DNA of 40,720 bases from Lachnospiraceae bacterium (GTDB taxonomy: Bacteria; Bacillota; Clostridia; Lachnospirales; Lachnospiraceae): contig JAFUGT010000063.1 in assembly GCA_017469275.1 (NCBI GenBank), positions 1-40,720 of the forward strand, given 5' to 3'. A program made the position numbers and the translations under genes. Positions 13,618 to 38,449 of the stretch are shown in pieces; position 1 is the stretch's first letter; every line of letters begins with the position of its first letter. Under the pieces are notes generated by a model. It was not told the origin of the DNA, made no database searches, and worked only from the letters and a program-made list of their open reading frames with translations.

Positions 13618-14478
13618 ATGTCATCAGTAAAAAAAATTCCTGCCATTGTTTCCGGTGCCGTCCCCTTTCACGACAGAGGGATTACAGGAAAGAAGGTTAC
13701 AATTGCCATTATGGATTCAGGGCTTTCGCCACATAACGAAATTGCCGCCAACAGAATACTTACCTTCAAGGATTTCATATATGGAAAAAAAGCTCTGTAT
13801 GATGACTATTCCCACGGAACTCATGTTACGGGAATTGCTGCTGCCACTTCCATCGGAATAGCACCTGAGTGCAATCTGGTAATACTGAAAGTTCTAGATG
13901 AACATGGCAACAGTGAAACAGATCTCTTCATACATGCTATAAAGTGGATACTTACGAATTATCTGATCTATAACATCAGAATTGTTAATATATCTATCGG
14001 TGGTAACAGTGAAGAACTCCGTCATGAGAACAACAGATTAAATGTGTGGATAAAGAAATTATGGGAACACGGAATCATAGTATGCTGTTCAGCCGGTAAC
14101 AACGGTCCTGTAGAGGGTTCTATATCTGCTCCCGGTAACTGCCCTGAAGTAATAACTGTCGGCTCCTATGACGGACAGCATTTTTCTTCGGCAGGACCAC
14201 TACGCCCATATATAACAAAACCGGAGCTGGTCGCTCCGGGTTATCACATATTAAGTTTGAAACCTCACTCAGGCTATTCTATCAAAAGCGGTACTTCCAT
14301 GTCTGTACCTTTTATAAGCGGATACTGCGCCCTGATGTTACAGATTTGGCCTGATTACTCCAACGATCAGGTCAAAATGCATCTTATGGAATCCGCCTAC
14401 AATGTTCCGTATCTGCCTTATAACATGCAGGGTGCCGGAATAGTAAGCCTTAATAAGCTTCTATCCTTTATTCTTTAA
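13618..14478 (+). CDS. Intracellular subtilisin-family (S8) serine peptidase
   Basis: A 286-residue subtilase with the complete catalytic set: Asp in AIMDSGLSPH (about residue 33), His in YSHGTHVTGIAA (about 68), the oxyanion Asn in SAGNNGP, and Ser in KSGTSMSVPFISG (about 232). There is no signal peptide or long propeptide, and the catalytic core starts almost at once, so the enzyme is probably cytoplasmic like Bacillus intracellular serine protease. GAGG lies 9 bases before the ATG. It is the only plus-strand gene in the window, diverging from the HD-GYP receptor and converging on the uvrD-like gene. Its substrate is unknown. Sharing a control region with the receptor suggests possible co-regulation. 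Confidence 0.95.
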   Translation: MSSVKKIPAIVSGAVPFHDRGITGKKVTIAIMDSGLSPHNEIAANRILTFKDFIYGKKALYDDYSHGTHVTGIAAATSIGIAPECNLVILKVLDEHGNSETDLFIHAIKWILTNYLIYNIRIVNISIGGNSEELRHENNRLNVWIKKLWEHGIIVCCSAGNNGPVEGSISAPGNCPEVITVGSYDGQHFSSAGPLRPYITKPELVAPGYHILSLKPHSGYSIKSGTSMSVPFISGYCALMLQIWPDYSNDQVKMHLMESAYNVPYLPYNMQGAGIVSLNKLLSFIL

Positions 14479-14558: not shown

Positions 14559-16447
14559 CCAAGAATCTCGTCAAGAAAGCGGGAAGCCGTAAGCTCCTTA
14601 TTATAATATTCCTTAACTTCATATATATGCAGATGATGTCTTGCGCGTGTCATAGCAACATAGAACATTCTTCGTTCTTCCTCAAGTTCTTCAGGAAGAA
14701 CTGCTTTCTTATATGGTGTAAGACCTTCATTCGCTTCGGGAATCAGGACCACATCATATTCCAAGCCTTTGGCGCTGTGCATCGTAGTGACTGCCACGCC
14801 TTCACGGTTATCCTCTCTATCCTGCCTGCTGTGCTCCTCAAGTTTTCTTCTGTATATTTCAATACTGTCAAACCATTCGATATATGAATTATACTGTCTT
14901 GCCATCTCGGAAAGTTCACAAAGCACTTCATAAAGATCATCCACATTAAGATGTCTGTAATTTGCATAATCTTTGAGATAAAGATCATAGCCTATAGCTT
15001 TTCTTATAAAATTAACTGCTGCATAGGGCTTTAATTTGGAAAGGGTTTCAAGGTCGTATCTCATTTGTATAAGATTGTCCTGCGCCCAATCCTTACCTTC
15101 ATACCGCTTTATCATATCATCAAAAGAAAAATCTTTTTCCGTAAGCATTTCCCTTGAGATATAACGGTTTGGTCTGTTGATTATTCTAAGGAACAGAGAC
15201 CTTTCCCTACTTCCCATGGCAGCATTTATATAATCAAAGATATTTTTTACGACAAAATGATCGTATATACACGGAACCTTATCTCTTGTATAAAATGGTA
15301 TATTATAATCCATAAGAATTTTCACAAGATTGCCGGCCTGAGCATTGGTTCTGTATATTACACTCATCTCAGAATAAGGAATTCCTTCCTCATGATATTT
15401 TCTTATTGTATCAAGAATCTCGCTGTTTTCCTCATTTCTGTTCTTCACATGATGAATATATATGGGTTCTTCATAATCACCACTGCTTGAAAGCCGCTTC
15501 TCATATCTTGCTTTGTTATGCTTAATTAATTTCTCGGAACCGTCAACTATATTCCTGCTGCATCTGTAATTCGTACCCAAAAGTGTAGTTTTGACATTTG
15601 GATAATCTTTACCAAAACCTAACATTATCTCAGGCTTGGCCCCGCGAAAACCATATATACTCTGGTCATCATCTCCAACAATGAAAAGATTGTTATCCGG
15701 TGCAGCCAATAATTTTGTAATCTCGTACTGAAGCTTGTTGATATCCTGAAACTCATCCACCAATATATATTTGTAGCGCTTCCTAAGACTTGAAAGAATA
15801 TCCGGTCTTTGCTTAAGAAGCTCATAGCAATACACCATCATATCATCGAAATCAAGCTTGCCATTATGAACTAAACAGTTTTGATATTCCTTATATATGT
15901 CTCTAAACACTTCTTCTCCAATGACAGAAGAATAGAAATGCTCCACGGGAATCATATCTCCCTTCATAAGACTTATCTCTTTGAGAATATCAGATATCAC
16001 TTCATCTTCGTCATCATATTCAAGTCCGCTCTTTGTAATTAATTCTCTGATAAGTTTGTATTTGTCATCGGAAGATATAATATTACCTGCGTTGTAGCCA
16101 TAGGCAGTTTTAAGTATATAGAAGAATACGGAATGAAAGGTTCCAAATGTAACACTACATTCCGTATTTCTTCCCGACGATTTATCAGACTGTGACAAAT
16201 CGCCCGTTCTTTTTCTCTCATTATTCAATACATCAAGAGACATGAACCTGTCCTTCATCTCTTTAGCACTCGCCCGCGTAAATGTTATAACAAGAATATT
16301 AGCGGGATTAATATGTGCTTCTTCGATAAGATATTTTATGCGGTATACTATAGCCGTAGTCTTACCCGAACCGGGACCCGCAAGTGCGATCATCGGCCCA
16401 TTCACATGATGTATTGCTTCAAGTTGTCCTTTATTAAACTCAGGCAT
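14555..16447 (-). CDS. UvrD/PcrA-like superfamily 1 DNA helicase
   Basis: A 630-residue 3'-5' helicase of the UvrD/Rep/PcrA family, shorter than PcrA (about 720). Motifs run in order: Walker A ALAGPGSGKTTAIVYRIKYL (about 17-36), ITFTRASAKEM, VDEFQDINKLQ (motif II), GDDDQSIYGFRGA (motif III), LGTNYRCS (motif IV), VTTMHSAKGLEYDVVLIP (motif V) and YVAMTRARHHL (motif VI). It probably unwinds DNA during repair or replication restart. Its ATG overlaps the 3' end of gltX by 8 bases, so it is likely translated from the same transcript. The C-terminal Tudor-like tail of PcrA is missing, so it may be a distinct paralogue rather than PcrA itself. Confidence 0.93.
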   Translation of the reverse strand: MPEFNKGQLEAIHHVNGPMIALAGPGSGKTTAIVYRIKYLIEEAHINPANILVITFTRASAKEMKDRFMSLDVLNNERKRTGDLSQSDKSSGRNTECSVTFGTFHSVFFYILKTAYGYNAGNIISSDDKYKLIRELITKSGLEYDDEDEVISDILKEISLMKGDMIPVEHFYSSVIGEEVFRDIYKEYQNCLVHNGKLDFDDMMVYCYELLKQRPDILSSLRKRYKYILVDEFQDINKLQYEITKLLAAPDNNLFIVGDDDQSIYGFRGAKPEIMLGFGKDYPNVKTTLLGTNYRCSRNIVDGSEKLIKHNKARYEKRLSSSGDYEEPIYIHHVKNRNEENSEILDTIRKYHEEGIPYSEMSVIYRTNAQAGNLVKILMDYNIPFYTRDKVPCIYDHFVVKNIFDYINAAMGSRERSLFLRIINRPNRYISREMLTEKDFSFDDMIKRYEGKDWAQDNLIQMRYDLETLSKLKPYAAVNFIRKAIGYDLYLKDYANYRHLNVDDLYEVLCELSEMARQYNSYIEWFDSIEIYRRKLEEHSRQDREDNREGVAVTTMHSAKGLEYDVVLIPEANEGLTPYKKAVLPEELEEERRMFYVAMTRARHHLHIYEVKEYYNKELTASRFLDEILG

Positions 16448-17906
16448 TGCCTGCTACCTTAAGTTTCTCAATACCAATCTCAATACGTCTTAAAGATTCT
16501 TCCTTGCCAAGAATATCCATAATCTCAAAGGCACCGCCCGGTGTCATCTGTTTTCCTGATACTGCTGTACGAACAGGCCACAGTCCGGTTCCGTTCTTGA
16601 TTCCTTTATCCGCAATATACTTCATCAAAATATCATGCAGATTATCCAGTGACCAGTCATCAACATCTTTCAGTATTTCATATTCTTCACTGAGAATCTC
16701 TAAAGAATTCTCGCTGTTAGTTTTCATTTTCTTATGAGTGAAAAGAATGGTATCATAATCCGGCAGTTCCTCAAAGAAATCAATGTGCTCCTTAATATCG
16801 GGAAAAACTTCAATACGAGTCTTCACCAGTTCAAGTATCTCATCAATCTTGACATCTCTTGTAATGACCTCTTTGACATAGGGAAGTGCCATCTCTTTGA
16901 ATCTGTCAAAGTCCATATTCTTAATATATTCGCCATTCATCCAGCGAAGTTTAACCATATCAAACACAGCCGGAGATTTGGAAATATGCTTATAATCAAA
17001 TACTTTAACAAGCTCCTCCAATGTGAATATCTCCTGATTATCCTCCGGACTCCAACCAAGCAATGCCACAAAATTAACAATAGCCTCAGTGACAAATCCC
17101 TGTTCTAACAAATCCTCGTAAGAAGAATGCCCGCTTCTCTTAGAAAGCTTCTCATGATTCTCATTGGTAATGGTAGGACAATGAATATAGGTTGGTACAT
17201 CCCAGCCAAATGCCTGATATAGTCTGTTATACTTAGGCGATGACGAGAGATACTCCTATCCCCTTACAACATGTGTAATCCCCATTAAATGATCGTCTAC
17301 CACGTTGGCAAAATTATAAGTAGGAAAACCATCTGACTTAATAAGGATCATATCATCAAGCTCATTATTGGGAACCGTTATTGTTCCATAAAGCTCGTCC
17401 TCAAAACTTGTCTCACCCTCTAAGGGTACATTCTGCCTAATAACATAAGGTTTGCCGGCCGCAAGATTAGCCTCAATCTCTTCCTTGGATAAATGCAGAC
17501 AATGCTTGTCATATCTTCTGATACTCTTGCCGTCCACAACCTCCTCTTTTAGATTGTCAAGCCTCTCCTTATCACAGAAACAGTAATATGCCTCGCCCTT
17601 GTCAATAAGTTTTTTGGCGTATTCGATATATATACCCTTCTTTTGACGTTCACTCTGCACATAAGGACCAACACCGCCATCTTTATCAGGTCCCTCATCA
17701 TGAATTAGTCCTGTTCCTTCCATTGTACGGTATATAATATCCACTGCGCCTTCAACATATCTCTCCTGATCTGTATCCTCTATTCGCAGTATAAAATCTC
17801 CGCCTTCATGCTTTGCTACAAGATACGAATACAAAGCAGTACGCAGATTACCTACATGCATTCTACCTGTTGGACTCGGTGCAAATCTTGTTCTTATTTT
17901 GGTCAT
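16440..17906 (-). pseudogene. gltX: Glutamyl-tRNA synthetase gene with in-frame amber codon (TAG at 17256-17258)
   Basis: The frame encodes a 488-residue class I GluRS except that codon 217 is TAG. Upstream are the Rossmann fold and HIGH-like motif ([11 protein letters not shown]). Downstream, in the same frame with no indel, are SSSPKYNRLYQAFGWDVPTY, the KMSKS-like KLSKRSG and the anticodon-binding part. The stop replaces the residue after THVVRG, which in relatives is usually Gln, Asn or Glu, so one base change (for example CAG to TAG) explains it. The enzyme charges tRNA-Glu, and in most Firmicutes also tRNA-Gln, and is normally essential. UAG is a genuine stop here (rpmE, panD and prmC end with it). 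The options are a sequencing error, nonsense suppression, or a second copy elsewhere. The start at 17906 is supported by GGAG 7 bases upstream, 11 bases after the SEC-C gene. Confidence 0.9.
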
Positions 17907-24132: not shown

Positions 24133-25209
24133 TTACGATGTCTCATTCATCTTAGCAAGCTTTGCAGCCTGGTCGGCTGCGGTAAGACTGTCAATGATTT
24201 CATCAAGATCACCATCTAACACCTGATCGAGGCGGTGCAGAGTCAATTTGATCCTGTGATCTGTAACACGTCCCTGTGGGAAATTATAAGTTCTGATTTT
24301 CTCTGATCTGTCACCTGTTCCCACCTGACTTTTTCTAAGTTCCGCCTCTGCATCATGAGCTTTCTGAAGTTCCATATCATATAACTTTGCCCGCAGTACT
24401 TTGAGCGCCTTATCTTTATTCTTTAACTGACTCTTCTCATCCTGACAGGATATTACGATTCCTGTAGGTATATGAGTCAGTCGAACCGCTGAATCTGTAG
24501 TATTTACACACTGACCTCCATTACCGGATGCTCTAAATACATCAAATTTGCAATCATTTAAGTCCAATTCGAAATCCACCTCTTCCGCCTCAGGCATAAT
24601 CGCAACAGTCATTGTTGATGTATGAATTCTTCCACCCGACTCAGTCTCCGGAACACGCTGTACACGGTGTACACCACTCTCATATTTTAATCTGGAAAAT
24701 GCACCCTTTCCATTTATCATAAATGAACATTCCTTATATCCACCGATTCCATTCTCATTAAGACTTATAAGTTCTGTCTTCCAATGCATCTTATCAGCAT
24801 ATTTCTGATACATACGGAACACTTCTGCGGCAAACAGTGCTGATTCGTCACCACCTGCACCGGCACGAAGTTCGACTATAACATTTTTATCATCATTCGG
24901 ATCCTTTGGTAGAAGAAGAATCTTAAGCTCCTGTTCAATCACCTGTACTTTTTCTTTTGAGTCATTAAGCTCTTCTTTTGCAAGCTCACGCATTTCCTCG
25001 TCTTTTTCTTCTTCAAGCATGGCAAGGCTATCCTCAATCGCCTGTTTTGCAGCGAGATATTCCCTGTATTTTTCTGCTATAGGTGCCAATTCACTCTGCT
25101 CTTTCATAAGTGAAGTGTATTTTTCCTGATCATTTAATATGTCCTGATCTGAAAGCTGCTCTAATACTGACTCGTAACGTGCTAATATATCCTCTAATTT
25201 ATCAAACAT
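24133..25209 (-). CDS. prfA: Peptide chain release factor 1
   Basis: A 358-residue RF1, which reads UAA and UAG and triggers peptide release. The catalytic GGQ is in [19 protein letters not shown] (about residue 228-246), and the codon-recognition region is [16 protein letters not shown], with the PxT form usual for RF1 (RF2 would have SPF). A coiled N-terminal domain (about 1-100) precedes it. The length is normal. It follows prmC, whose product methylates the GGQ glutamine. RF1 being intact is consistent with UAG remaining a stop codon, relevant to the gltX amber. Confidence 0.97.
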
Positions 25210-25346: not shown

Positions 25347-26261
25347 CTACAAATGTCCATATACCACCCGATCCATACCTGCATAATCCTTCTTGATAAC
25401 CACCTCTGTAAAACCGGCATTTTTCATAAGTGATAATACCGCATTTCCCTGATTATATCCTATCTCAAAAAACAGATATCCGTTATCGCCCATATATTCC
25501 ACTGCCTGTCCCGTTATCGTTTTATAAAAATCAAGACCATCCTCACCACCATCAAGAGCAAGATGAGGTTCGTGTTCCTTCACCTCAGGCATAAGTGTAT
25601 TAATCACTTCACTCTCAATATACGGCGGGTTGCAAACAATTATATCATATTTCAACGTTCGGTCTTTATAATACTCATCTTCAAACAGATTACAACACAC
25701 GACATCAGCGTCCGTAATGTTGTATTTATCAAGATTTTTCTGCGTAACCTTAAGAGCGTCTTTCGAAATATCACTTAAAGTAAGAGCTATATTATTATGA
25801 TACATTTTCAGCGAAATCCCTATGCATCCGGAACCGCAGCAAAGATCCAACACTCTTACCTCTTTGCCATTAAATGACGCATTTGAACTGTCAGCATTAT
25901 CTCCGTTATCAGATGTATTACCCTTATGCATGTCAAACAGCTCATTAACCGTCTCTACAAGCACTTCCGTATCACTTCTTGGAATAAGCACCTTCTCATC
26001 AACAAAGAAAGTGTAATCCATAAAATGAGCTTCTCCCATAATATACTGTAACGGATAATGTTCGCATCGAAGTTCTATCAGTTTCTTATATTCTTCCTCT
26101 TTTTCAGGTGTAACAGTCTCGCTCCCATTGATAAGCATATACATATAATTGACACCAAGGACATGCTCTAACATTACCTTGCGCTCATACTTCGCATATT
26201 CATTACCTGAAAGTTCCAGCTGTTCTTTGCCATAATCCAATAATTCATTTATAGTTGACAT
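25347..26261 (-). CDS. prmC: Release factor glutamine methyltransferase
   Basis: A 304-residue SAM-dependent methyltransferase that modifies the Gln of GGQ in RF1 and RF2. VLDLCCGSGCIGISL is the SAM-binding loop (about residues 135-149) and IVCNPPYIES carries the NPPY catalytic motif. The N-terminal helical domain (about 1-85) contacts the release factor. A low-complexity insert rich in Asn, Asp and Ser (about 112-131) between the domains makes it some 20 residues longer than usual. GGTGGTG precedes ATG. It lies just upstream of its substrate gene prfA and ends with TAG. Confidence 0.95.
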   Translation of the reverse strand: MSTINELLDYGKEQLELSGNEYAKYERKVMLEHVLGVNYMYMLINGSETVTPEKEEEYKKLIELRCEHYPLQYIMGEAHFMDYTFFVDEKVLIPRSDTEVLVETVNELFDMHKGNTSDNGDNADSSNASFNGKEVRVLDLCCGSGCIGISLKMYHNNIALTLSDISKDALKVTQKNLDKYNITDADVVCCNLFEDEYYKDRTLKYDIIVCNPPYIESEVINTLMPEVKEHEPHLALDGGEDGLDFYKTITGQAVEYMGDNGYLFFEIGYNQGNAVLSLMKNAGFTEVVIKKDYAGMDRVVYGHL

Positions 26262-27720: not shown

Positions 27721-28392
27721 TTAATCTTTTTTGATCCAACCCCAGAAATCATTGTTAGAAAAATCCTTTCCGGATTTATTGGAAATCAGATAGTACTGAA
27801 TCTTCTTCCCCTTATATGGTCCCGAAGCAAATTCATTAGTTCCGCTTAATATTTTGTTTGAATTGTTTTTTCTCGGATTATTATCTGACCAATCACCGTT
27901 GTAATAATAAATGTGAGGTGAATCCTCCTTGTCTATATAAAGCGCATAAAATACAGTGTACTTGTCTTTGTCTGTCACTTTTGCCGTAGTTGAGTAATTA
28001 CTCCCCACTGCTATCATATAACAATACGGTTCATTATCACCTGTAAGATCGGCAGTTTCAAGTACCTTCTTTGCAAAATCAGTATTAGTAGCATCACAAT
28101 CACCATTATTACCCGGAGTTTTAGAACCAGGTATAATACTTGCATTTGCTGCAACTTCACCTCCGGACTTAGCGTATAAATCCACAAGTCCAGCCTGAGT
28201 TGCCGTCATAGCATTTCTTGCATTTAATATATATTGTTGCTTTTTCGCTCTGTCAATATATCCCATAAGAGCAGGAATCAATATGGCCGCTAAAATCGCA
28301 AGAATCACCAGAACAACTATAAGCTCAACCAGAGTAAATCCGCTGTTTTTTCTATTATTAAATTTTGAAGGTATTTTTTTACGCATAACCAT
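27721..28392 (-). CDS. Type IV pilin-like protein (second pilin)
   Basis: A 223-residue prepilin. After a short basic leader comes the cleavage site SG/FTLVELIVVLVILAILAA with Glu at position +5 of the mature protein, then PALMGYIDRAKKQQYILNARNAM. The first 50 mature residues are almost the same as those of the major pilin at 35880, but the C-terminal domain is longer and different, with VLETADLTGDNEPYCYMIAVG and WSDNNPRKNNS. The start is uncertain: ATG 28392 has AAGG 5 bases upstream, and ATG 28386 is also possible. It is the last gene of the locus, after pilB, and may be an alternative or minor pilin. Confidence 0.88.
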   Translation of the reverse strand: MVMRKKIPSKFNNRKNSGFTLVELIVVLVILAILAAILIPALMGYIDRAKKQQYILNARNAMTATQAGLVDLYAKSGGEVAANASIIPGSKTPGNNGDCDATNTDFAKKVLETADLTGDNEPYCYMIAVGSNYSTTAKVTDKDKYTVFYALYIDKEDSPHIYYYNGDWSDNNPRKNNSNKILSGTNEFASGPYKGKKIQYYLISNKSGKDFSNNDFWGWIKKD

Positions 28393-28471
28393 AACCGCCT
28401 TATAGTTCATTCAATAATTCTATCGGAATAACCCGGTCTTGGCTTAACATCAAAATATCTAAAACAGACAT

Positions 28472-30352
28472 TTAATCAAACGAAGCTACTCTTCTAAATT
28501 CTTCAACTGTAGTAATACCCTGCTCCATAAGATCTATGCAGCTCTCTCTAAGTGTCTGCATACCCTGATGTTCAATTGCATAATCTTTAATTTCCTCTGT
28601 AGTTGCACCTTGCGATATCATTTTTCTAAGCGGCTTATCAATTACCAATATCTCATGAATAGAAATACGGCCATTATATCCTGAATTGTTACAATGATTA
28701 CAACCATGTGCAACTTTAACTAACGGAATATCTCTTCCGATAAAATGTTTGTCGTCCTCCGAAAGCGGAGCTTCTGTACAGCAATAGGTACATACCTTTC
28801 TAACAAGACGCTGTGCTATGATTCCGTCTAAAGCACTGGATACCATATACGGCTCAATACCCATATCCACAAGACGGATTACCGATGAAGCCGCATCATT
28901 TGTATGAAGTGTGGAAAGCACCAAGTGTCCGGTAATGGCTGCACGTACTGAAATATTAGCCGTCTCGGCATCACGAGTCTCACCGACCATTATGATATCC
29001 GGATCTTGTCGAAGCAATGCTCTAAGTCCTACTTCAAATGTCAATCCGGCAACAGGATGTACCTGCATCTGATTAAGTTTTGGCAGATTCTTCTCGACCG
29101 GATCTTCAATCGTAGATATATTAACCGGTCGGTTAGACAGTTCCGCCAACATCATATAAAGTGTTGTTGATTTACCGGAACCTGTAGGTCCTGTCAGATA
29201 AATAATACCGTTAAGCGAACCTAGCATTTGCTGAACTTTCTTATAGTTTTCCTCATTCATACCAAAGGTACCCGGATGATCGATTGCAGAATTGTTTGCA
29301 AGCATTCTGAGAACTGCTTTTTCCCCAAAGGTGGTCGGTATTAGAGATACACGGACATTGACTATCTGATTTCTGATACGCACACGAAAATGTCCATCCT
29401 GAGGAACACGACGTTCAGCAATATCAAGCTCGCCCATAATCTTTATACGCGCAATAAGTGATGCATGAATATTCTTTTGCAAAGTAACATATTCCACCAT
29501 AGCGCCATCTATACGCATACGAACCATTGTATTTTTTTCAAAGGGTTCTATATGAATATCCGATACATTATCAGCATATGCCTTATCAAGCAAACTGTTA
29601 ACGAGATTGATTATAGGTGTATCGTAGGTTGCATCAGATGTATCAATCAACATCTCGTCCACACCGCCGTCATCCATCTCTTTGTTGGCCGCCGTAACCG
29701 CCTGTTTTGCTGAAATCTCTGCATAATAGTAATTAATAGCATTAAGGAGTGGATCCTTCTCAGAGATAAGAAGTTCAATAACCTTACCGGTTGTCTGTCT
29801 TATATCCTCAATACCATACAAATCAAGAGGATCATTAACAACTAACTGCAATCTGTCATTTTCAAGTCCCACCGGAAGCATACAGTAATTAGTGGCTAGC
29901 TGTTCCGGAATGAGATCAACCGCTTCAATATCCACCTTCATATTGGATATATCTATCATCTGAATGTTAAGCTTCTCAGCCAAAGCTCCTAACATCTGCT
30001 TCTCGGTTACAAAGCCAAGCGTAATAAGAATCGCACCAATACGCTCACCCTTGTGTTCTTTCTGATAAGCCAAAGCCTCACCCAACTGTCCGTCAGTTAT
30101 ATATCCCATCTCAATAAGAGTATCGCCAAGACGAAGTTTTCTTATCGCATTATTATCTACCATTCCTCCCTGTGCCGGAGCCGGTGCAGGCGGAGCCGGT
30201 GCAGGCGGAGCCGGAGCTGACGGAGCAGTAGCCATCGGTGTCGGAGCCGGTGCAGGCGAAACCGTTGAAGTGCCAGGTACAGTCTGTGTCGGAGTTGTAG
30301 CAGACATTGATGTGTTCGATTTATTGTCAAAATCTCCAATTCTTAATTTCAT
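28472..30352 (-). CDS. pilB: Type IV pilus assembly ATPase with MshEN domain
   Basis: A 626-residue GspE/PilB ATPase that powers pilus extension at the inner face of the membrane. An unusual Ala/Pro-rich linker (about 20-65, APAPPAPAPPAP-type) follows a short head. Then comes an MshEN domain (about 70-135) with LRLGDTLIEMGYITDGQL and a second RIGAILITLGFVTEKQM, fitting the RLGxxLxxxGxI c-di-GMP-binding pattern. Walker A is YLTGPTGSGKSTTLY, the Asp box is IEDPVE, Walker B is PDIIMVGETRD, and a zinc tetracysteine (CTYC and CNHC) follows. With two c-di-GMP phosphodiesterases in the window, control by this nucleotide is a fair inference. Confidence 0.95.
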   Translation of the reverse strand: MKLRIGDFDNKSNTSMSATTPTQTVPGTSTVSPAPAPTPMATAPSAPAPPAPAPPAPAPAQGGMVDNNAIRKLRLGDTLIEMGYITDGQLGEALAYQKEHKGERIGAILITLGFVTEKQMLGALAEKLNIQMIDISNMKVDIEAVDLIPEQLATNYCMLPVGLENDRLQLVVNDPLDLYGIEDIRQTTGKVIELLISEKDPLLNAINYYYAEISAKQAVTAANKEMDDGGVDEMLIDTSDATYDTPIINLVNSLLDKAYADNVSDIHIEPFEKNTMVRMRIDGAMVEYVTLQKNIHASLIARIKIMGELDIAERRVPQDGHFRVRIRNQIVNVRVSLIPTTFGEKAVLRMLANNSAIDHPGTFGMNEENYKKVQQMLGSLNGIIYLTGPTGSGKSTTLYMMLAELSNRPVNISTIEDPVEKNLPKLNQMQVHPVAGLTFEVGLRALLRQDPDIIMVGETRDAETANISVRAAITGHLVLSTLHTNDAASSVIRLVDMGIEPYMVSSALDGIIAQRLVRKVCTYCCTEAPLSEDDKHFIGRDIPLVKVAHGCNHCNNSGYNGRISIHEILVIDKPLRKMISQGATTEEIKDYAIEHQGMQTLRESCIDLMEQGITTVEEFRRVASFD

Positions 30353-30412
30353 AGATTCTCTTCACCCTCTATACATTATATATTAGTATCATTTTATTCA
30401 TAGCAAAATTAA

Positions 30413-31345
30413 TCAATCGACAATTGTTTCGGTTGCCTCTTCGCCGGATTCATCTGACGAACCAGCTTCAACTTTACCTTCAGTAAGATCCTTAAATGCA
30501 GAACCGTCATACATATACATCTCAAAATTAACAATCAATCTATTGCCACTCTCCTCTGCAACCTGAACAAGTTCTCCGTTAACATACTCAAAAGGAAGAG
30601 ATGTGAGATCCGTCCACTCGTAAGAAGTAACTCTGAATGCTTTATTGGTAATAATCTCATCAAGCAGTGCCTGAACTTTTCCGTGATCACCATATACATC
30701 CAACATAAGAGAGGCAGCATACACATCCGCAGGTGTTGTATCTTCAATATTGTACATTCCATCTTCATTATTGATGGAAGCAAGCGCTTCTATATCAACC
30801 ATGCCATCTGACGCCTTTGTAGTGCTGCTATCCTCAGTGTCTTCAACATTGTCCTTATCATTTTTATCTGATTTAGCATTAGCGGCTGTATCCTCATCGG
30901 CAGCTTCTTCCTCCTCCAGAACATATTGTGCAGCTTCTATCGCTTTTTGCTTAGCCGCCCACGCCTCTGAATTAACATAGGCAAGAAGCACAACCGGATC
31001 TTTGGGAGACTGAATACTGAAATTATTAACCTTAAGTCCATATCCCAAGGCTTTATTGGTAACCAATCTGTCCACATCAGCCGCCATCTGTCGCTCATAA
31101 TATCTTGAAGACAATTCATCTGTCATTTTCTCAGCATTGCTCTTGAATTCCTCTATCATATCAAGCTGCATAATCTTCATCTTGATTGAATCGTGCAGAA
31201 CCTGCGCATCATCAATTTTTTCTTCTATGGAATTGATTTTCCTGTTAAGCGGTCTGATACCAATTATAAAAAACAGTGCAGCTATGACAATCAGACCTAA
31301 CATATATAATAGTTTTTTATCTCTTGCTGTTATTCCGGTCGCCAT
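30413..31345 (-). CDS. PilO/GspM-like pilus inner-membrane protein
   Basis: A 310-residue protein with one membrane helix near the N-terminus (about 13-30), a coiled-coil stretch (about 33-95, NRKINSIEEKIDDAQVLHDS) and a C-terminal ferredoxin-like region, the layout of PilO/GspM. A strongly acidic low-complexity insert (about 140-185, with EEEEAADED and DNVEDTEDSS) breaks the C-terminal part. GGAGGTGAGTAA precedes ATG, and the pilMN gene ends 4 bases upstream. It probably pairs with the PilN part of that protein to form the alignment complex. The call rests on topology and position more than on sequence motifs. Confidence 0.75.
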   Translation of the reverse strand: MATGITARDKKLLYMLGLIVIAALFFIIGIRPLNRKINSIEEKIDDAQVLHDSIKMKIMQLDMIEEFKSNAEKMTDELSSRYYERQMAADVDRLVTNKALGYGLKVNNFSIQSPKDPVVLLAYVNSEAWAAKQKAIEAAQYVLEEEEAADEDTAANAKSDKNDKDNVEDTEDSSTTKASDGMVDIEALASINNEDGMYNIEDTTPADVYAASLMLDVYGDHGKVQALLDEIITNKAFRVTSYEWTDLTSLPFEYVNGELVQVAEESGNRLIVNFEMYMYDGSAFKDLTEGKVEAGSSDESGEEATETIVD

Positions 31346-31349
31346 TTAC

Positions 31350-32819
31350 TCACCTCCCCGCACTTTCCGACAATATGCATTCAAGATTGGCAACCCATTG
31401 TCCGGAGCTGTTAATCTCTGAGTATCCCGTATAATTAACTTCAAAGAAACAATCCTCTGCATCTAATCGGTCTATAAATGTGTTGACCATCTCCACATCC
31501 TGGAATTTGGCAGTAATGCCAATCTTTCCCTGTGTTGAATCATAACTGTCAATAGTGACATCTCCAAGCCCCACTGCTGCTTTCTTGATTATCTTATCAA
31601 TCTCAGATGTAGGCAATGGATAACTGTCTATATTCTTGTCAAGCAATCTAAGAGCATTAACATGACCGCTGTATAATTCCACATTTGCAGCAGCCTTATC
31701 ATATTCGGCTGCCATAGAAAGATTAGCAGGATTAGTATTGTAATCCTCTAATTCTTTGAGTTCTTTGTTCTTATTAACATAAGTAACAATGCGCGATACG
31801 GTTATTATCAGCATCAGGAGAAATACAGCCACATAAGGAACCGCAAGTTTAATGATTTTATTACGTTTTTCATGATCAACTATTTCACCCTTGCCATACA
31901 TCTTTAAAAGATTCTGATGGTCTGTAAGTGTCATAAGACCTGCTGTCGGATAAAACAAAGTATCCAGTGAATCTGTTGAATATGAGAATTTAACCCCACG
32001 CATTACACTTATATTATATACAACAACATTCTCAGACAAATTCATGGATATTGCTCTTTCGACATTGGTTGCATCCTCTAATGTCATTCCCGCAAGATAA
32101 ATCTGAGAAATCGCATCTTCTACCTTTTCAGACTTGGAGAACTGTTCAATCTGGCTGACCGTATTAGAAATCTCACCGGCAAATTCAAGAGTACCCGGCT
32201 GATTAAATGTACGGGCAGTTGTTGAATAGAAATATTCTCCTTTAACAAGATAAATAGCTGTAACAGTCATCGCATCCCTAAGCATAACAACACTGTTTTT
32301 ATCCGGTGCAAAATTAAGTTTCTTTAGAAAGTTAACGGATACACCGATACCACTGTTGATTTCCTTAAGTTCAATGCCCGCACCCGCAAATACATTAACA
32401 TAATTGGCTATGAATTCCACATCCGCAAGTTCAGTACATACCTTCATGGTCTTATTTTTTTTGTTCTGGCTTATAACATAGAAACCTAACAATCTCTTGC
32501 GCTCACCACTTCGCTCTTCAAACTCACGCTGCAGATATATGTCTGCTTTATTATGCGACATAATCGGCATATCAATCACTCTGACTGATATCTGAGAAGT
32601 GTTGATAACAAGTCTTATCCCCTTTTTCGGCAGCTTATGTGTATTCCACATTCCTGCAAGAGCGTATTGAATTCCTTCAGGATCTGTAATTACACCATTT
32701 AAGAAGCTGCCCTCCGGCATTGGAGTTGAGTAAACATGACTAACCGACACTCCTTTACCATTGCTCTGTCCTGAAAGCACTTCTATGTCTGTATTAGATA
32801 AATAAACAGTTAGACTCAT
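31350..32819 (-). CDS. PilM-PilN fusion (GspL-like) pilus protein
   Basis: A 489-residue protein. The N-terminal 310 residues are cytoplasmic and PilM-like (actin fold) but lack the DxGxxxxK nucleotide loop usual near the N-terminus (it reads MSLTVYLSNTDIEVLSGQ). A membrane helix (about 325-350, AVPYVAVFLLMLIITV), a coiled coil and a PilN-type extracellular domain follow. Such PilMN fusions are known in clostridial type IV pilus loci such as that of Clostridioides difficile, and the layout recalls GspL of type II secretion. AAGGAGG lies 6 bases before ATG 32819, which is preferred over an upstream start. It probably connects the ATPase to the pilus base. Confidence 0.85.
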   Translation of the reverse strand: MSLTVYLSNTDIEVLSGQSNGKGVSVSHVYSTPMPEGSFLNGVITDPEGIQYALAGMWNTHKLPKKGIRLVINTSQISVRVIDMPIMSHNKADIYLQREFEERSGERKRLLGFYVISQNKKNKTMKVCTELADVEFIANYVNVFAGAGIELKEINSGIGVSVNFLKKLNFAPDKNSVVMLRDAMTVTAIYLVKGEYFYSTTARTFNQPGTLEFAGEISNTVSQIEQFSKSEKVEDAISQIYLAGMTLEDATNVERAISMNLSENVVVYNISVMRGVKFSYSTDSLDTLFYPTAGLMTLTDHQNLLKMYGKGEIVDHEKRNKIIKLAVPYVAVFLLMLIITVSRIVTYVNKNKELKELEDYNTNPANLSMAAEYDKAAANVELYSGHVNALRLLDKNIDSYPLPTSEIDKIIKKAAVGLGDVTIDSYDSTQGKIGITAKFQDVEMVNTFIDRLDAEDCFFEVNYTGYSEINSSGQWVANLECILSESAGR

Positions 32820-32881
32820 ATTCGTCCTCCTTACATATTGCATCCATTAATAGGTAATTGCCTATATATCCGCTTAAATAA

Positions 32882-34078
32882 TTACTGTGCACCGATAGAC
32901 TGATAAGACTGGTATATAGGAACAATTACAGATATCATGATAAATCCGACTATTACCGCCATAACAACGATCATTGCCGGTTCAAGATACGCAACCATCT
33001 GACTTATTGCACGCTCTGATTCAAATTCCATATCATCGGCAATCGAGTCGAGCATAGTATCAAGTGATCCGGCTTCTTCACCAACACGGATAGATGATTC
33101 TATCTTCTTAACAAAACCATCCACTTTACCTATGGCTGAACTTAAAGATTCGCCGGCAGTTGTATCGGCAATAACCTGTTTGAACTGCTTCTCTATATAC
33201 AGGTTACCAATTGTCTTACTTGCGATATCAAGACATGTAATAATAGGAATACCTGATGAATATAAAGAACTTAATGTCCTGGCAAAACGTGCAGTATATA
33301 TGACTTTGAATAATTTACCAATCTTGGGAATATGAATCTGGATTCTGTCTAATACGTAGCATACAGCCGGTATTTTCTTAAGAAAATATATCAATAGGAA
33401 TACTGTTACCGCTCCTATAATAAGAGCATACCAATAGGCAACAACGAAATCGCTTATTGCAAGCATAATCCTTGTAGGAAGTGGCAACACCGGCATAGAA
33501 GCAAATAGTGAATCAAATTGCGGCATTACAAATCCAAATATAACCGCTACCACTAATACTATCAAACCGCTAAGAATCTTCGGATATGTCATGGCACTTT
33601 TGACCTTGGCATTTAACCTGTCTTCTTTGGTATATTGAGCAGATATTCTCATTGCCGTATCATCAAGACCACCACTGGACTCTGCCGCACGAAACATATT
33701 AATTATGAGCATCGGGAATACACCCTTCATGGATTCCATTGCAACTGAAAGAGGAACGCCCTGCATAACCTCCTTAGTAACATCATTATATATCTTTCGT
33801 TCATAAGGAGTCACCGCTTCATCTTCCGAAAGCATCTGCAGACATCTGACAAGAGGTATACCGGCATGCATCAATGTACCTATCTGCCTCGCAAATTCCG
33901 CTAAAGCCTTTGCCTTAAGAGGCTTGTAATTGGCTGTTTTGGTGAGATCCTTTGCATCCAAAAGCATCAGCTTCTTCTGCTTAAGTCTGTCGTGAAGATC
34001 CTGCTCATCAGCTGCTATCAGAACACCCGTGACAGTACCGCCTTCGGCATCCTGAGCTTTGTATCTGAAATTGGGCAT
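32882..34078 (-). CDS. pilC: Type IV pilus inner-membrane platform protein
   Basis: A 398-residue GspF/PilC protein with two repeated T2SSF domains (about 60-185 and 265-390), each ending in membrane helices. Typical stretches are FARQIGTLMHAGIPLVRCL, PLSVAMESMKGVFPMLIINMFRAAESSG and its counterpart FARTLSSLYSSGIPIITCL, KIESSIRVGEEAGSLD. It is the rotor-like platform above PilB. ATG 34078 is chosen because GGAGG lies 9 bases upstream and MPNFRYKAQD is the family start; the frame stays open upstream. A 183-base gap before it contains promoter-like sites. Confidence 0.96.
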   Translation of the reverse strand: MPNFRYKAQDAEGGTVTGVLIAADEQDLHDRLKQKKLMLLDAKDLTKTANYKPLKAKALAEFARQIGTLMHAGIPLVRCLQMLSEDEAVTPYERKIYNDVTKEVMQGVPLSVAMESMKGVFPMLIINMFRAAESSGGLDDTAMRISAQYTKEDRLNAKVKSAMTYPKILSGLIVLVVAVIFGFVMPQFDSLFASMPVLPLPTRIMLAISDFVVAYWYALIIGAVTVFLLIYFLKKIPAVCYVLDRIQIHIPKIGKLFKVIYTARFARTLSSLYSSGIPIITCLDIASKTIGNLYIEKQFKQVIADTTAGESLSSAIGKVDGFVKKIESSIRVGEEAGSLDTMLDSIADDMEFESERAISQMVAYLEPAMIVVMAVIVGFIMISVIVPIYQSYQSIGAQ

Positions 34079-34124
34079 AAGCTTATACCTCCAAGGATTA
34101 ATACTTTTTTCAAAATAATTGCGA

Positions 34125-34185
34125 TTAATATATATGATTGCATACCTGTCAATGAATATATTCAATCATATGATATGGCTGTCAA
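34125..34185 (-). promoter_or_regulatory. Promoter region of pilC with two TTGACA boxes
   Basis: Two perfect TTGACA hexamers occur at 34180-34185 and 34147-34152. The first has TATATT 19 bases on, the second TATTAA 16 bases on. Either could start transcription of pilC and the downstream genes. A TGAATATATTCA palindrome lies between them. Confidence 0.45.
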
Positions 34186-34261
34186 AAGTACCTTTTGTTC
34201 CCCCATGATATACGAGTTGCTCCATTGTTTCATAATTCCCACAACTTAGCAAAAATTGGAT

Positions 34262-35113
34262 TCATCCATGAATATATGCAGCAAACTTCATATATGCATC
34301 GATAATATCCATTCCGCATATTGTAGCAATCATGTATCCCGTACAAAGAAACGGTCCAAAGGCAAAATGATCTTTTTTTCCCTTCTTCTTTCTGATAAGA
34401 AGAATAATCCCATATATTCCGGCAGCAAAAAGACCTATAATAAAACCTATAATAGTAAGCTGCCATCCCATTATAAGACCTGCTGCAGCAGATAACTTGA
34501 CATCACCGCCACCGAAAGCTCCCGGTATAGCATACATAATCAATAACATTGGTATACTAATACACAATGCCCCGATAATATGATCTATCAAAGAAACTCC
34601 AGAAACAACCAACAGTGCCACTACTGCAACATACAACATTACAATTATGAATCTGTTGGGTATCTCCATTGTATCCATATCAACAAGAAATACTAAGTCC
34701 AGTATACAAAAAAATACAAAAATCGTCAATAAGGTTAGCAATTTCCATATGTCAAAATGTACCACAATATCTATCGGCGAGGACAGGATAAATGCACTTG
34801 ACAGATCATCCACATCTCCAAATCTGAAAAATACAAGTAATGCAATAATTCCACCTGCTATCTCGTTAACAAAATCTCTTACAGACAACTTTTCACCACA
34901 ATATCTGCATCTTCCTTTAAGAAAAATATACGAAAATACCGGAATCGTCTCATAGGGCTTAAGCTGCATTTCACAACTGTCACATTTAAAATGCTCCTTA
35001 AGTATTTTCTTCTGTTTTGGAAAACGATATGCAATAACATTAACAAAAGAAAATGATACCGTTCCAATCATCCACGCTAATATAATTGCAAGTATATATA
35101 AAAAAACTATCAT
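34262..35113 (-). CDS. pilD: Prepilin peptidase (A24 family)
   Basis: A 283-residue polytopic aspartic peptidase that cleaves prepilin leaders and N-methylates the new end. Two zinc-type CxxC pairs (CDSC and CRYC, about residues 45-75) mark the methylase-like region. The catalytic aspartates are in FLVDMDTMEIPNR and AFGGGDVKLSAAAG (GGGD). Seven to eight hydrophobic segments are visible. ATG 35113 is preferred to a TTG three codons earlier, though the ribosome site is weak. All pilin-like proteins encoded around it are expected substrates. Confidence 0.95.
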   Translation of the reverse strand: MIVFLYILAIILAWMIGTVSFSFVNVIAYRFPKQKKILKEHFKCDSCEMQLKPYETIPVFSYIFLKGRCRYCGEKLSVRDFVNEIAGGIIALLVFFRFGDVDDLSSAFILSSPIDIVVHFDIWKLLTLLTIFVFFCILDLVFLVDMDTMEIPNRFIIVMLYVAVVALLVVSGVSLIDHIIGALCISIPMLLIMYAIPGAFGGGDVKLSAAAGLIMGWQLTIIGFIIGLFAAGIYGIILLIRKKKGKKDHFAFGPFLCTGYMIATICGMDIIDAYMKFAAYIHG

Positions 35114-35200
35114 CTTATTCAAATTCCATTTCTATAATTATATTTATGTAATATTTCGATTTTGGGTTTCTCTCGAAAGAAGTTACATAATATATCAACT

Positions 35201-35253
35201 TTAGCCTTCCCCTTGAGGGAAAGGTAGTGTCAAAGACGCCGGATAAGGTGTTC
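35201..35253 (+). repeat. CCTTCCCC...GATAAGGTG intergenic repeat (MITE/REP-like)
   Basis: TTAGCCTTCCCCTTGAGGG, AAGGTAG, a small GTGTC-AAA-GACGC hairpin and GCCGGATAAGGTG form the element. Near-identical palindromic elements (CCTTCCCCTTGAGGGGAAGG, then GACGGATGAGGTG) are widespread between genes in gut Clostridia, from memory. It lies between the 153-residue pilus-locus gene and pilD. A palindrome AAAATTCTGAATTTT follows directly. Confidence 0.6.
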
Positions 35254-35310
35254 AAAATTCTGAATTTTATACATCATTTATTCTTGTTTATAATTGAATA
35301 CAATCAAACA

Positions 35311-35772
35311 TCATTCGTATTCTAGTAATTTTAATGTATAATATCCCTTCCATGTCGAAGTTCCATCACTTTGTTTTTTAAAAATAATTATGTATCTATC
35401 TTTTTGAAAAGTAAATGCAACAGGATCGTTGTTCTCTGCATCCCAAGCCTGAAGTACAATCTCTCCATCTGCATCTGCCATTTTTAGCAACTCTGCTTCC
35501 ATTCCCTTTGTCATACCATTCTTAGCTAACGGCTGATATAATGTTCCTCCAAGTCCATATTGTTCTACAGCCTTCATCTTCATGGCAATCCGAATATCCT
35601 TAGCCTCTCTCATTGCATGTCTTGTTCCCGAATTAATTCCAAACCAAAAAAAGACAACACATAAGATAACCGCCACAATGACTGCCGCGATTACTATGGT
35701 CGCAATTATATTTCTTCGATAATTAGTGGTTGTTCCTACAACCTGAACACCGTTTTCTCTTTCTTCTGCCAT
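35311..35772 (-). CDS. Pilin-like membrane protein without prepilin signal
   Basis: A 153-residue protein with one membrane helix at about 23-46 (IIATIVIAAVIVAVILCVV) followed by a helical stretch (REAKDIRIAMKMKAVEQYG) and a compact C-terminal domain ending WKGYYTLKLLEYE. The shape resembles a pilin, but there is no G/F-T-L-x-E prepilin peptidase site, and the 20-residue head is hydrophilic. GAGG precedes ATG. It lies between the major pilin terminator and pilD, so a pilus role is inferred from position only. I do not recognise the family. Confidence 0.75.
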   Translation of the reverse strand: MAEERENGVQVVGTTTNYRRNIIATIVIAAVIVAVILCVVFFWFGINSGTRHAMREAKDIRIAMKMKAVEQYGLGGTLYQPLAKNGMTKGMEAELLKMADADGEIVLQAWDAENNDPVAFTFQKDRYIIIFKKQSDGTSTWKGYYTLKLLEYE

Positions 35773-35813
35773 ATAAACCTCAAATATTGATTATACCATT
35801 CCATGATATTTAA

Positions 35814-35856
35814 TAATTAAAAAATAATAACCCTCCTCCAACATATTGGAGGAGGG
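35814..35856 (-). terminator. Strong Rho-independent terminator after pilA
   Basis: A perfect 11-bp stem (CCCTCCTCCAA with TTGGAGGAGGG), a 4-base loop, then TTATTATTTTTTAATTA on the minus strand. With the promoter at 36401 it makes pilA a self-contained transcription unit, as usual for highly expressed major pilins. Confidence 0.92.
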
Positions 35857-35879
35857 CTATATATAATCAAAATGTATTA

Positions 35880-36332
35880 TTACGGAGTAGTCGTAACTTC
35901 TGACCATGTTCCATTCTTCATCTGGAGATGTTTTCCTGTTGTTCCGTCAGCAGAATCAAATGTAATATCTAACTCTTTGATTGTAAGGCAATCCTTAGTA
36001 CCGGTAGTGCTTCTAGGTGTGTAAGAGATCTTTGTAACGGAAGTCGGAGTCACCATATCATTAATTTCATCTTTTTCGTCATCTGTAAAAGGATGTGCTG
36101 CAGTAAGTGTGGTTGATGTCGTTGCATATACTTCATCAAGAACAGCCTGTGCAGCTGTATAGATTGAACGTGCTTCCTCATAATACTTTGATTCCTTAGC
36201 TCTGTCAATGTAACCCAGCAATGCAGGTACAAGTAATGCTGCAAGGATTGCAAGGATAACCAATACAACGATCAACTCAACGAGGGTAAAACCTTTCTGA
36301 TCCTTCTTAAGTGCTTCAAGTCTCTTTCTCAT
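35880..36332 (-). CDS. pilA: Major type IV pilin
   Basis: A 150-residue prepilin: a short leader MRKRLEALKKDQKG, cleavage before FTLVELIVVLVILAILAA (Glu at +5), then PALLGYIDRAKESKYYEEARS and a small variable head with Thr-rich stretches (TTSTTLTAAHP, SEVTTTP). AAGGAGG lies before ATG. Its own consensus promoter and perfect terminator, compared with its neighbours' lack of either, mark it as the main structural subunit. Its N-terminal 50 residues closely match the pilin at 27721. Confidence 0.93.
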   Translation of the reverse strand: MRKRLEALKKDQKGFTLVELIVVLVILAILAALLVPALLGYIDRAKESKYYEEARSIYTAAQAVLDEVYATTSTTLTAAHPFTDDEKDEINDMVTPTSVTKISYTPRSTTGTKDCLTIKELDITFDSADGTTGKHLQMKNGTWSEVTTTP

Positions 36333-36400
36333 AATAAAATCCTCCTTCTACTTATAAAACTTTAAAACTATTGCGTCTCACGCACACTTAATATGTGAAT

Positions 36401-36429
36401 ATTATATCACTTTTAGTTTGATTTGTAAA
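36401..36429 (-). promoter_or_regulatory. Sigma-A promoter of pilA
   Basis: TTTACA (36424-36429), a 17-base spacer, a perfect TATAAT (36401-36406). The leader of about 60 bases contains a TGCGT-GAG-ACGCA mini-hairpin. It is too short for a c-di-GMP riboswitch, and none is recognised here. Confidence 0.75.
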
Positions 36430-36572
36430 GAGTTTTGTGAGATTTGCACATAACAAATTGTTAAAAATTACAACAATTTAATCATGTAAATACATTCTAT
36501 ATCTTTACACAGTATATATCGGATAGAAATATTTAGAAATTAATAGTTATTTAAAAATTATTTTAACATATA

Positions 36573-37439
36573 TCACTTATCACTGTACATTGTCGGTTCC
36601 AACTTATAATATACTTCGTTCTGAATGTCTATTCTTCTGGTCTTTTCATAAACTGTTTCCGAAGCACCCACTGATTCATCAATAATCTTCTTAACAAATA
36701 CAGTTACATCCACATAATCCACCACATTATTACCACTGCCATCATCACGCGGTTTAACAGAAAACTCAAGGTCTATAATATAATCCTGATACATCTCTTT
36801 GGGAAGCTTTTCCTGTGCATGCCATACGACTTCGCATCCTGATGTCAATGAACTAAAGCTTGTAAGTCCGGCCGCATATGTTCCGGGACCAAATTTGTCC
36901 ATAAAAAGATTAGCATATTCACTGTTAGTCTCTTTCATTTTTCCATAATAACGCATGGACAGATAATTTGATGGCAGAGTAGCCTTAGTAGTTGTTGTTC
37001 CCTTAATAGTTACTTCTCTTAATTTTTCATCTTTTCCATCTATCATATCCGCGTTGCAGCCTGCGGTATCAATCTGCACCGCATTTTGTCCATCGTTAAT
37101 ATTGGATGCAATGAACTCTATTGTTGTCCCGGTATAAATGCCGCCATTAACATCAGCAGCACCACTGCCATTTCTAAGCTTTACATACCCTGCTCTCCCG
37201 TTATCTGACGCCTGCATTGTCCTTATATCCTTCTTAAGTTCTGACAACACAACATCTGCAACGGTATAAGACCTCATTCTTTGCTGTTCATCGAAAAAGA
37301 AAATGATAGCATGGGAAATGCACATAGTTGAAGCAGCCAGAAAAATCGCAAGCAAAGCAAATGTAACAATCAACTCTACCATTGTCACACCTTTGTTCCT
37401 GTTTTGCATTCCTTTGTACTTACACTTCTTTGTTATCAT
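36573..37439 (-). CDS. Minor pilin-like protein (PilW/GspJ-type)
   Basis: A 288-residue prepilin with basic leader MITKKCKYKGMQNRNKG, cleavage before VTMVELIVTFALLAIFLAA (Glu at +5), then a larger beta-rich domain. VADVVLSELKKDIRTMQ after the helix is typical of the PilW/GspJ group. Clostridial loci call similar genes pilU or pilK, so no symbol is given. AGAGAG precedes the ATG, and the prior gene ends 34 bases upstream. It probably sits in the pilus tip or starts assembly. Confidence 0.8.
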   Translation of the reverse strand: MITKKCKYKGMQNRNKGVTMVELIVTFALLAIFLAASTMCISHAIIFFFDEQQRMRSYTVADVVLSELKKDIRTMQASDNGRAGYVKLRNGSGAADVNGGIYTGTTIEFIASNINDGQNAVQIDTAGCNADMIDGKDEKLREVTIKGTTTTKATLPSNYLSMRYYGKMKETNSEYANLFMDKFGPGTYAAGLTSFSSLTSGCEVVWHAQEKLPKEMYQDYIIDLEFSVKPRDDGSGNNVVDYVDVTVFVKKIIDESVGASETVYEKTRRIDIQNEVYYKLEPTMYSDK

Positions 37440-37473
37440 AATCTTTCTCTCTTTCTGAAAGTTTCAAGGTCAA

Positions 37474-37866
37474 TCAATCACCTGTAGAAAACATATATAG
37501 TTTTCTGACATTATTATCTGTCATATCATTAGTGATTTCGTATTTATCATCAGTTTTTTTGAAGGATACATTGACCGCGCTAACACTGTAATCAAACTCC
37601 GGTATAGAAGCTCCGGTACTGTCAGTTCCCGAAAAAGTATAAGTTACTGTATTACCCGATCCTAATTTGTAGGAAGTGCCATCTTTAAACTTATCAGCAA
37701 CCACCTTTTCGAACATTTCATTATTGCGATCTATGTCCGTCGCTTCCCTTAGCAGATTCGATGCAAATTTCATACAGCTGTACATTATGACCATGACTAG
37801 TGTAAGCATAACAAATGCTACCAATATCTCTATCATTGTCATACCTTTGTTAGTATTATTCTTCAA
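37474..37866 (-). CDS. Minor pilin-like protein (PilV/GspI-type)
   Basis: A 130-residue prepilin: leader MKNNTNKG, cleavage before MTMIEILVAFVMLTLVMVI (Glu at +5), then a short domain. It is similar in size and position to PilV/GspI subunits. The start codon is TTG at 37866, with GAGG 9 bases upstream and no ATG available. It lies 12 bases after the PilX-like gene and 34 bases before the PilW-like gene, so the set is one operon. Confidence 0.8.
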   Translation of the reverse strand: MKNNTNKGMTMIEILVAFVMLTLVMVIMYSCMKFASNLLREATDIDRNNEMFEKVVADKFKDGTSYKLGSGNTVTYTFSGTDSTGASIPEFDYSVSAVNVSFKKTDDKYEITNDMTDNNVRKLYMFSTGD

Positions 37867-37878
37867 TATAGTTCACCT

Positions 37879-38430
37879 CTATTCGCCATCGTCCAAAGTG
37901 TAATGATCGTAATATCCTTTAAATTCATATGCAGGCGTACCGCCGTTATCTGTAACAGCATATCTGCATACACAAGATGCCATTGTATGGTCGCCATCAG
38001 AGACAGATATGGTAATAACCAAGTCACCTCTAAAGACCTGGTTTCTATCAAGAGTCATATCAATAGCGCCATAGACACCATTAGCTCCGGCAGACAGGTA
38101 CTCTTTATCCGGCGCATCCGCATCGGAATTACTCATAAATGAATCAATATGGGCCACAAGTGGATCAGACGATACTCCAGACATTCCTTTGCCTTCAAGC
38201 CTTGTCCTTAACACCTCTGAAAATGACATTGCCTGTTGATAATATAACTCATCACGTCCCTCATCATTAACGGTTGCAAGCATCTGGTATGCAGACATAA
38301 GGAGCGTCAGGGATAGGATCATCGTAACCGCCATGACGCAGACCACTACGATCATGGCTGCGCCGCGGTTTGACTTTTTCTTTTTAACCTTATTAAGTTG
38401 ACCATATTTACTTGAACTATTATTATTCAA
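37879..38430 (-). CDS. PilX-like minor pilus protein
   Basis: A 183-residue protein with a basic head (KVKKKKSNRG), a membrane helix AAMIVVVCVMAVTMILSLTLL (about 24-45) and YQMLATVNDEGRDELYYQQAM, resembling the PilX N-terminal family (RGAAMIVVV in place of the Gly/Phe-Thr-Leu-x-Glu motif, so no Glu at +5). GspK and PilX subunits lack that Glu as well. The start is TTG 38430, with GGAG 10 bases upstream and no ATG. It precedes the other minor pilins and follows the large protein by 19 bases. Confidence 0.75.
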   Translation of the reverse strand: MNNNSSSKYGQLNKVKKKKSNRGAAMIVVVCVMAVTMILSLTLLMSAYQMLATVNDEGRDELYYQQAMSFSEVLRTRLEGKGMSGVSSDPLVAHIDSFMSNSDADAPDKEYLSAGANGVYGAIDMTLDRNQVFRGDLVITISVSDGDHTMASCVCRYAVTDNGGTPAYEFKGYYDHYTLDDGE

Positions 38431-38449
38431 TATTCACAGTCTCCTATTT

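Follow-up and report, generated by a model that had tools for sequence, protein, structure and literature searches.

The gltX gene of the draft Lachnospiraceae genome analyzed here (G000), which codes for the bacterial glutamyl-tRNA synthetase, carries an in-frame TAG at codon 217, and comparison with related genomes shows, at the level of sequence, a single, private, and recent base change from CAG to TAG in an otherwise conserved gene. This TAG is probably not a working feature but an error in the consensus base, or an allele of a minority or dead strain, captured in a draft assembly of the metagenome type. Living cells would then carry CAG and make an ordinary synthetase, and the reads would be expected to show CAG. 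The window (the whole stretch of DNA analyzed) is contig 74 of G000, with 40,720 bases, and its features are collected in Table 1. G002, G005, G007, G013, and G024 denote relatives from the same genus.

Table 1. Features of the window discussed in the text, with their positions
Feature	Position	Strand	Remarks
Subtilisin-like serine protease gene	13618..14475	+	
gltX, bacterial glutamyl-tRNA synthetase	16440..17906	-	488 codons and TGA; AAGGAG-type ribosome site ahead
gltX second part	16440..17255	-	KLSKR and anticodon-binding domain
In-frame TAG, gltX codon 217	17256..17258	-	CAG in 21 of 21 same-genus copies read
gltX first part, 216 aa	17259..17906	-	Profile positions 1 to 206 of 314, catalytic domain
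prfA, peptide chain release factor 1	24136..25209	-	Intact
prmC, release factor glutamine methyltransferase	25350..26261	-	Ends in TAG
Type IV pilus-like gene cluster	27724..40720	-	
PilB/GspE-type ATPase with MshE-type domain	28475..30352		Within the pilus-like cluster

The codon reads CTA on the forward strand and TAG in the frame of gltX, and the frame is otherwise intact, as the initial annotation stated, ending after a further 271 sense codons in TGA. Read through the stop, the product scores 508.7 bits against the bacterial glutamyl-tRNA synthetase model TIGR00464 (gltX_bact; cutoff, 289.95). The stop falls within the catalytic domain PF00749, at about profile position 206/208, with the second part matching positions 208 to 314 in addition to the anticodon-binding domain, so that neither part amounts to a whole catalytic domain. 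The first part contains what we take to be the HIGH-type motif and KLSKR in the second is presumably the KMSKS-type motif, which places the TAG between these two halves, in agreement with the earlier description. The first possible starts beyond the TAG are a TTG after 49 codons, a GTG after 63, and an ATG after 100, and, with the domain cut in this way, termination at codon 217 should yield no working enzyme. A synthetase split into two separately started parts was ruled out, as all of these starts lie inside the conserved domain.

The equivalent codon is a stop in none of the 21 same-genus copies read. As for the other four relatives of the genus, the gltX pieces of G006 and G021 span codon 217 and have no stop, and for this comparison G004 offers the first 57 residues only and G011 a weak match only. 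The 82 copies from other genera have Asn at this residue, with one exception (Cys), which, together with CAG throughout the genus, indicates that this genus has Gln at the site; the replaced residue had been predicted to lie one base from TAG, and CAG does. Among the matches listed for 98 genomes, gltX stops were flagged in four, including the present one, which is the only interior stop; those of G053, G089, and G091 turned out on reading not to be interior. A family-level search of 397 genomes revealed no other genome with a gltX stop among the matches listed. By gltX, the closest relatives with a name are uncultured Lachnospiraceae, most of them metagenome assembled.

Compared with the nearest relative, G007, nonsynonymous differences are found in 8 of the 216 codons before the stop and in 13 of the 265 after it (P = 0.66), and both parts thus appear to be equally conserved, with relaxed selection visible in neither of them. 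A general decay of gltX is ruled out by this equal conservation, which fits a change with no history. The earlier impressions that the change could be very recent and that selection on the downstream half looks intact are both borne out by these counts and by the private occurrence of the amber codon.

Several observations favor an error. The G000 bin, presumably derived from a metagenome assembly, is fragmented and incomplete (2.80 Mb in 182 contigs, 82.6% complete, 3.5% contamination), and other interior stops of the genome resemble base errors. The synthetase is normally indispensable, the bin has one copy of it, and no part of that copy has the whole catalytic domain. There is also evidence against an error, as the 40.7-kb contig looks clean, a second clean CAG-to-TAG change is found in a single-copy gene on another long contig (see below), and there were no frameshift junctions in about 50,000 aligned codons.

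To describe the quality of the window, we compared 6,118 of its codons, those covered by at least three of four relatives (G002, G005, G013, and G024). The private codons of G000 comprise 350 synonymous, 30 nonsynonymous, and 1 nonsense, while the synonymous and nonsynonymous counts are 308 and 73 in G013, 345 and 108 in G002, 360 and 69 in G024, and 51 and 2 in the partly covered G005. The nonsynonymous-to-synonymous ratio of G000 is therefore below those of three of the four relatives, that of G005, only partly covered, being lower still. Within these codons, the amber is the sole private nonsynonymous single-base C-to-T change of G000, and private nonsynonymous G-to-A changes are not in excess (6 in G000 against 8, 5, and 3 in G002, G013, and G024, respectively). 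The window does not abound in errors, yet one error per tens of kilobases would be invisible, because random change in gltX is computed to give 16 to 23 missense changes for each nonsense one. Elsewhere, we noted two TGA-ended open reading frames (ORFs; L256 12986-13201 and L151 16326-17324) that are 247 and 218 residues shorter than their homologues and are followed by more stops; they look as they would after a frameshift, which adds to the evidence for an error, or they may be real truncations.

Interior stops were counted in a homology census, which used non-overlapping ORFs and a coding filter against antisense ORFs. In G000, the 49,593 codons covered contain 4 interior stops, and the 282,697 covered in other genomes contain 3 flagged stops, of which 1 was judged real, with L200 (ahead of the start of a gene) and L125 (which looks antisense) being set aside. 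With all four stops, the excess in G000 gives Fisher P values of 0.002 (versus 1) and 0.012 (versus 3), and it is weak when counting the two clean stops only (P = 0.06 and 0.16, respectively). In G000, 960 kb were scanned by coding bias, with a sensitivity of 51% at CAG codons (1,771 of 3,440). This gave 9 candidates, and 15 were obtained for G002; gltX, murI, and a pfl-like gene in the former and one receptor gene in the latter were taken as interior stops, and, apart from two unjudged TGAs (L169 and L174), the remaining candidates looked by eye like noise or like the end of one gene ahead of the start of another.

The second clean stop of G000 lies in murI (G000:C103:51381-51383; L145 11381-11383, minus strand), on a 54-kb contig. 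It is private to G000, with CAG in all 19 genus copies read at the site and no stop there in the 24 further genomes of the genus that gave a match. An Asp/Glu racemase domain was matched in this gene, which from its sequence we take to be the glutamate racemase, and it is single copy, the further genus matches being weak (22 to 27%, in G008 and G013). Both clean TAGs are at Gln, and besides them G000 has one messy TAG, one messy TGA, and two unjudged TGAs. The messy TGA, in the presumed pfl-like gene (L170 1300-1302, G000:C110), adjoins a second changed codon on a 3.6-kb contig, and the messy TAG, in a gene that we read as cheX-like (L234 7110-7112, G000:C95), lies 65 bases from the end of its contig, with several changed bases around it; both look like assembly base errors. 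Of the two TGAs counted neither way, L169 precedes a BspA-type repeat protein and L174 lies within a low-complexity protein. A chemotaxis receptor gene of G002 (L219 840-842, minus strand; G002:C18) contains a clean TAG at a conserved Gln before TNLLALNA, where G005 has CAG; this site was not among the codons that the homology census covered. G005 itself has a TAA (L136 around 1711, minus strand; G005:C12) in a gene that is presumably of the HAD-type phosphatase kind, at a position where a relative has Ser, which makes it a counterexample within the genus to the CAG-to-TAG pattern.

Thus, the three clean ambers, found in two genomes, all replace CAG. In G000, CAG is used 18.4 times per 1,000 codons and CAA 5.8 times, and CAG-to-TAG changes would make up 4% of random nonsense changes at equal rates, 13% if transitions were four times as likely, and 44% with transitions only. 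The corresponding P values for two of two such changes are 0.002, 0.018, and 0.19, of which the latter two stand among the evidence against an error. Because we noticed the pattern only in hindsight, we consider it no more than suggestive. The simplest account is a wrong or minority base in a draft that has further base errors, the two clean cases both having arisen through the transition that most often creates a stop.

TAG appears to function as an ordinary stop in this genome. It ends 104 of the 629 ORFs of at least 150 amino acids in G000 (16.5%) and 135 of 728 in G002 (18.5%). Among the TAG-ended ORFs with a homologue, 20 of 23 end where expected and three are short (gltX, murI, and the cheX-like gene); in this comparison, three TGA and two TAA overhangs were set aside as other end differences. 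A second stop within five codons follows 23% of the TAGs of G000, compared with 35% of TAAs and 37% of TGAs. ABC-type ATPases are a family with a conserved Gln, and none of the 63 ABC-ATPase domain matches in G000 contains a stop. The prfA product scores 537 to 539 bits and has one private change, from Phe to Tyr. The initial annotation had considered wholesale recoding unlikely, citing an intact prfA and genes that end in TAG; we found prfA intact and prmC ended by TAG, and an ORF that, from its sequence, we take to be panD ends in the same way. Wholesale recoding of TAG is ruled out by the normal termination, the intact release factor, and the fact that TAG is not avoided.

A search for an amber-reading tRNA, which had been proposed as a check, gave a negative result of limited reach: none of the 18 tRNA genes found in the bin has a CUA anticodon, and none of them matched tRNA-Gln either, so a suppressor tRNA could simply be missing from it. 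One further weak tRNA match fell below the cutoff, and the only match to a CUA-tRNA pattern in G000 was not a tRNA according to ARAGORN. Across the genus, 22 of 26 genomes matched a tRNA-Gln pattern, always with CUG and never with CUA, although a divergent CUA tRNA would escape such a pattern; a genus-wide tRNA-Gln search also gave second matches at 78 to 81%. The bin lacks a GlnRS-type match as well, and many relatives of the genus have both this and tRNA-Gln, so their absence is probably due to incompleteness. In G024, G013, and G004 (L295, L296, and L298, respectively), the 3' portion of tRNA-Gln(CUG) recurs as incomplete copies whose flanks differ, as left by elements integrating at this tRNA gene.

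The initial annotation had left sequencing error and suppressor tRNA side by side; we consider the error the probable reading and a natural suppressor unlikely. The latter would most likely be a tRNA-Gln with its CUG anticodon changed to CUA, as in supE, located outside the bin and inserting Gln at UAG, so that gltX and murI gained tolerated CAG-to-TAG changes. The presence of two clean ambers from CAG in single-copy essential genes speaks for it, as do the third such change, in the receptor of G002, and the lack of any tRNA-Gln match in the bin, which would leave the likely suppressor out of view. Against it are the anticodons found, both in the bin and in the genus, the frequent use of TAG as a terminator with no extra tandem stop behind it, the uninterrupted ABC-ATPase domains, and the fact that a one-step reversion would be favored. 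The broader proposal of a Lachnospiraceae lineage with a fairly efficient Gln-inserting suppressor, in which UAG is ambiguous and codon reassignment is at an early step, is improbable too; reassignment itself is excluded, and a young or weak suppressor, unlikely as it is, is compatible with the data. We hold similarly little confidence in a real but harmless amber, with an intact gltX in an unassembled part of the genome or in a coassembled sister strain. The incompleteness of the bin and the 14 of the 80 stretches taken that read wholly as N could keep a second copy out of sight, but no second full-length gltX was found in same-genus genomes among the matches listed, in which each extra gltX match is either GlnRS-like, at about 27% identity, or a gene piece. 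With murI likewise single, two separate genes would need one excuse. The second copy suggested at the outset is unsupported.

Far less probable is a conserved programmed readthrough that limits the synthesis of the synthetase. The intact frame on both sides of the stop would suit it, but the stop is shared by no genus copy read and is the only interior one among the matches listed for the 98 genomes; the mechanism was ruled out on these grounds, and the self-limiting synthetase raised in the initial annotation is not supported. Genome-wide reassignment of TAG to Gln or pyrrolysine is the least credible of all, as the two clean ambers at Gln codons stand against the normal ends of the TAG-terminated ORFs and the intact release factor. 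Pyrrolysine was ruled out, since a pyrrolysyl-tRNA synthetase (PylRS) scored over the cutoff in none of the 26 genus genomes (21 had weaker matches below it); among 14 control genomes, 1 was over the cutoff and most had weak matches below. Even taken together, conserved readthrough and recoding have a very small chance of being correct.

Suppression of the supE type, which inserts Gln at amber codons, would tolerate CAG-to-TAG changes, and the changes in G000 are alike in this respect; the difference is that no CUA tRNA is among the 18 found. In the available portion of a survey of in-frame stops in bacterial genes, readthrough, pseudogenes, and errors are discussed, and only stops common to at least two genomes were counted, which excludes sequencing errors (PMC7918605). 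As far as that portion describes them, the gltX amber resembles those stops, with TAG in place of the CAG of relatives and purifying selection still acting on the gene, but, present in a single genome, it would fail the two-genome rule. The portion available on crAss-like gut phages describes genetic code 15, which reads TAG as Gln (PMC9523058), and the TAGs of G000 are likewise at Gln positions; unlike what is described there, G000 keeps TAG as a common normal stop and has release factor 1. The part available of a work that screened 250,000 genomes describes the previously known changes of the bacterial code as reassignments of UGA, and no UAG-to-Gln change in bacteria was seen in that part (PMC8629427). 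Our literature searches gave, among the matches listed, no report on natural amber suppressors in wild bacteria and none on nonsense errors in metagenome genomes. If the amber is an error, it calls for caution when a draft genome shows a nonsense change of a single base. Should both ambers be true, UAG would be a natural bacterial codon for both stop and Gln, and early steps of codon reassignment would become directly testable; with a suppressor, the essential gltX and murI would carry an internal UAG even though roughly every sixth gene still terminates at this codon.

Last, other regions of the window contain a type IV pilus-like gene cluster, which includes several ORFs that are prepilin-like by sequence and a PilB/GspE-type ATPase with a c-di-GMP-binding MshE-type domain, and a subtilisin-like serine protease gene, located on the strand opposite to its neighbors, which matched mycosin-type models below their cutoffs.
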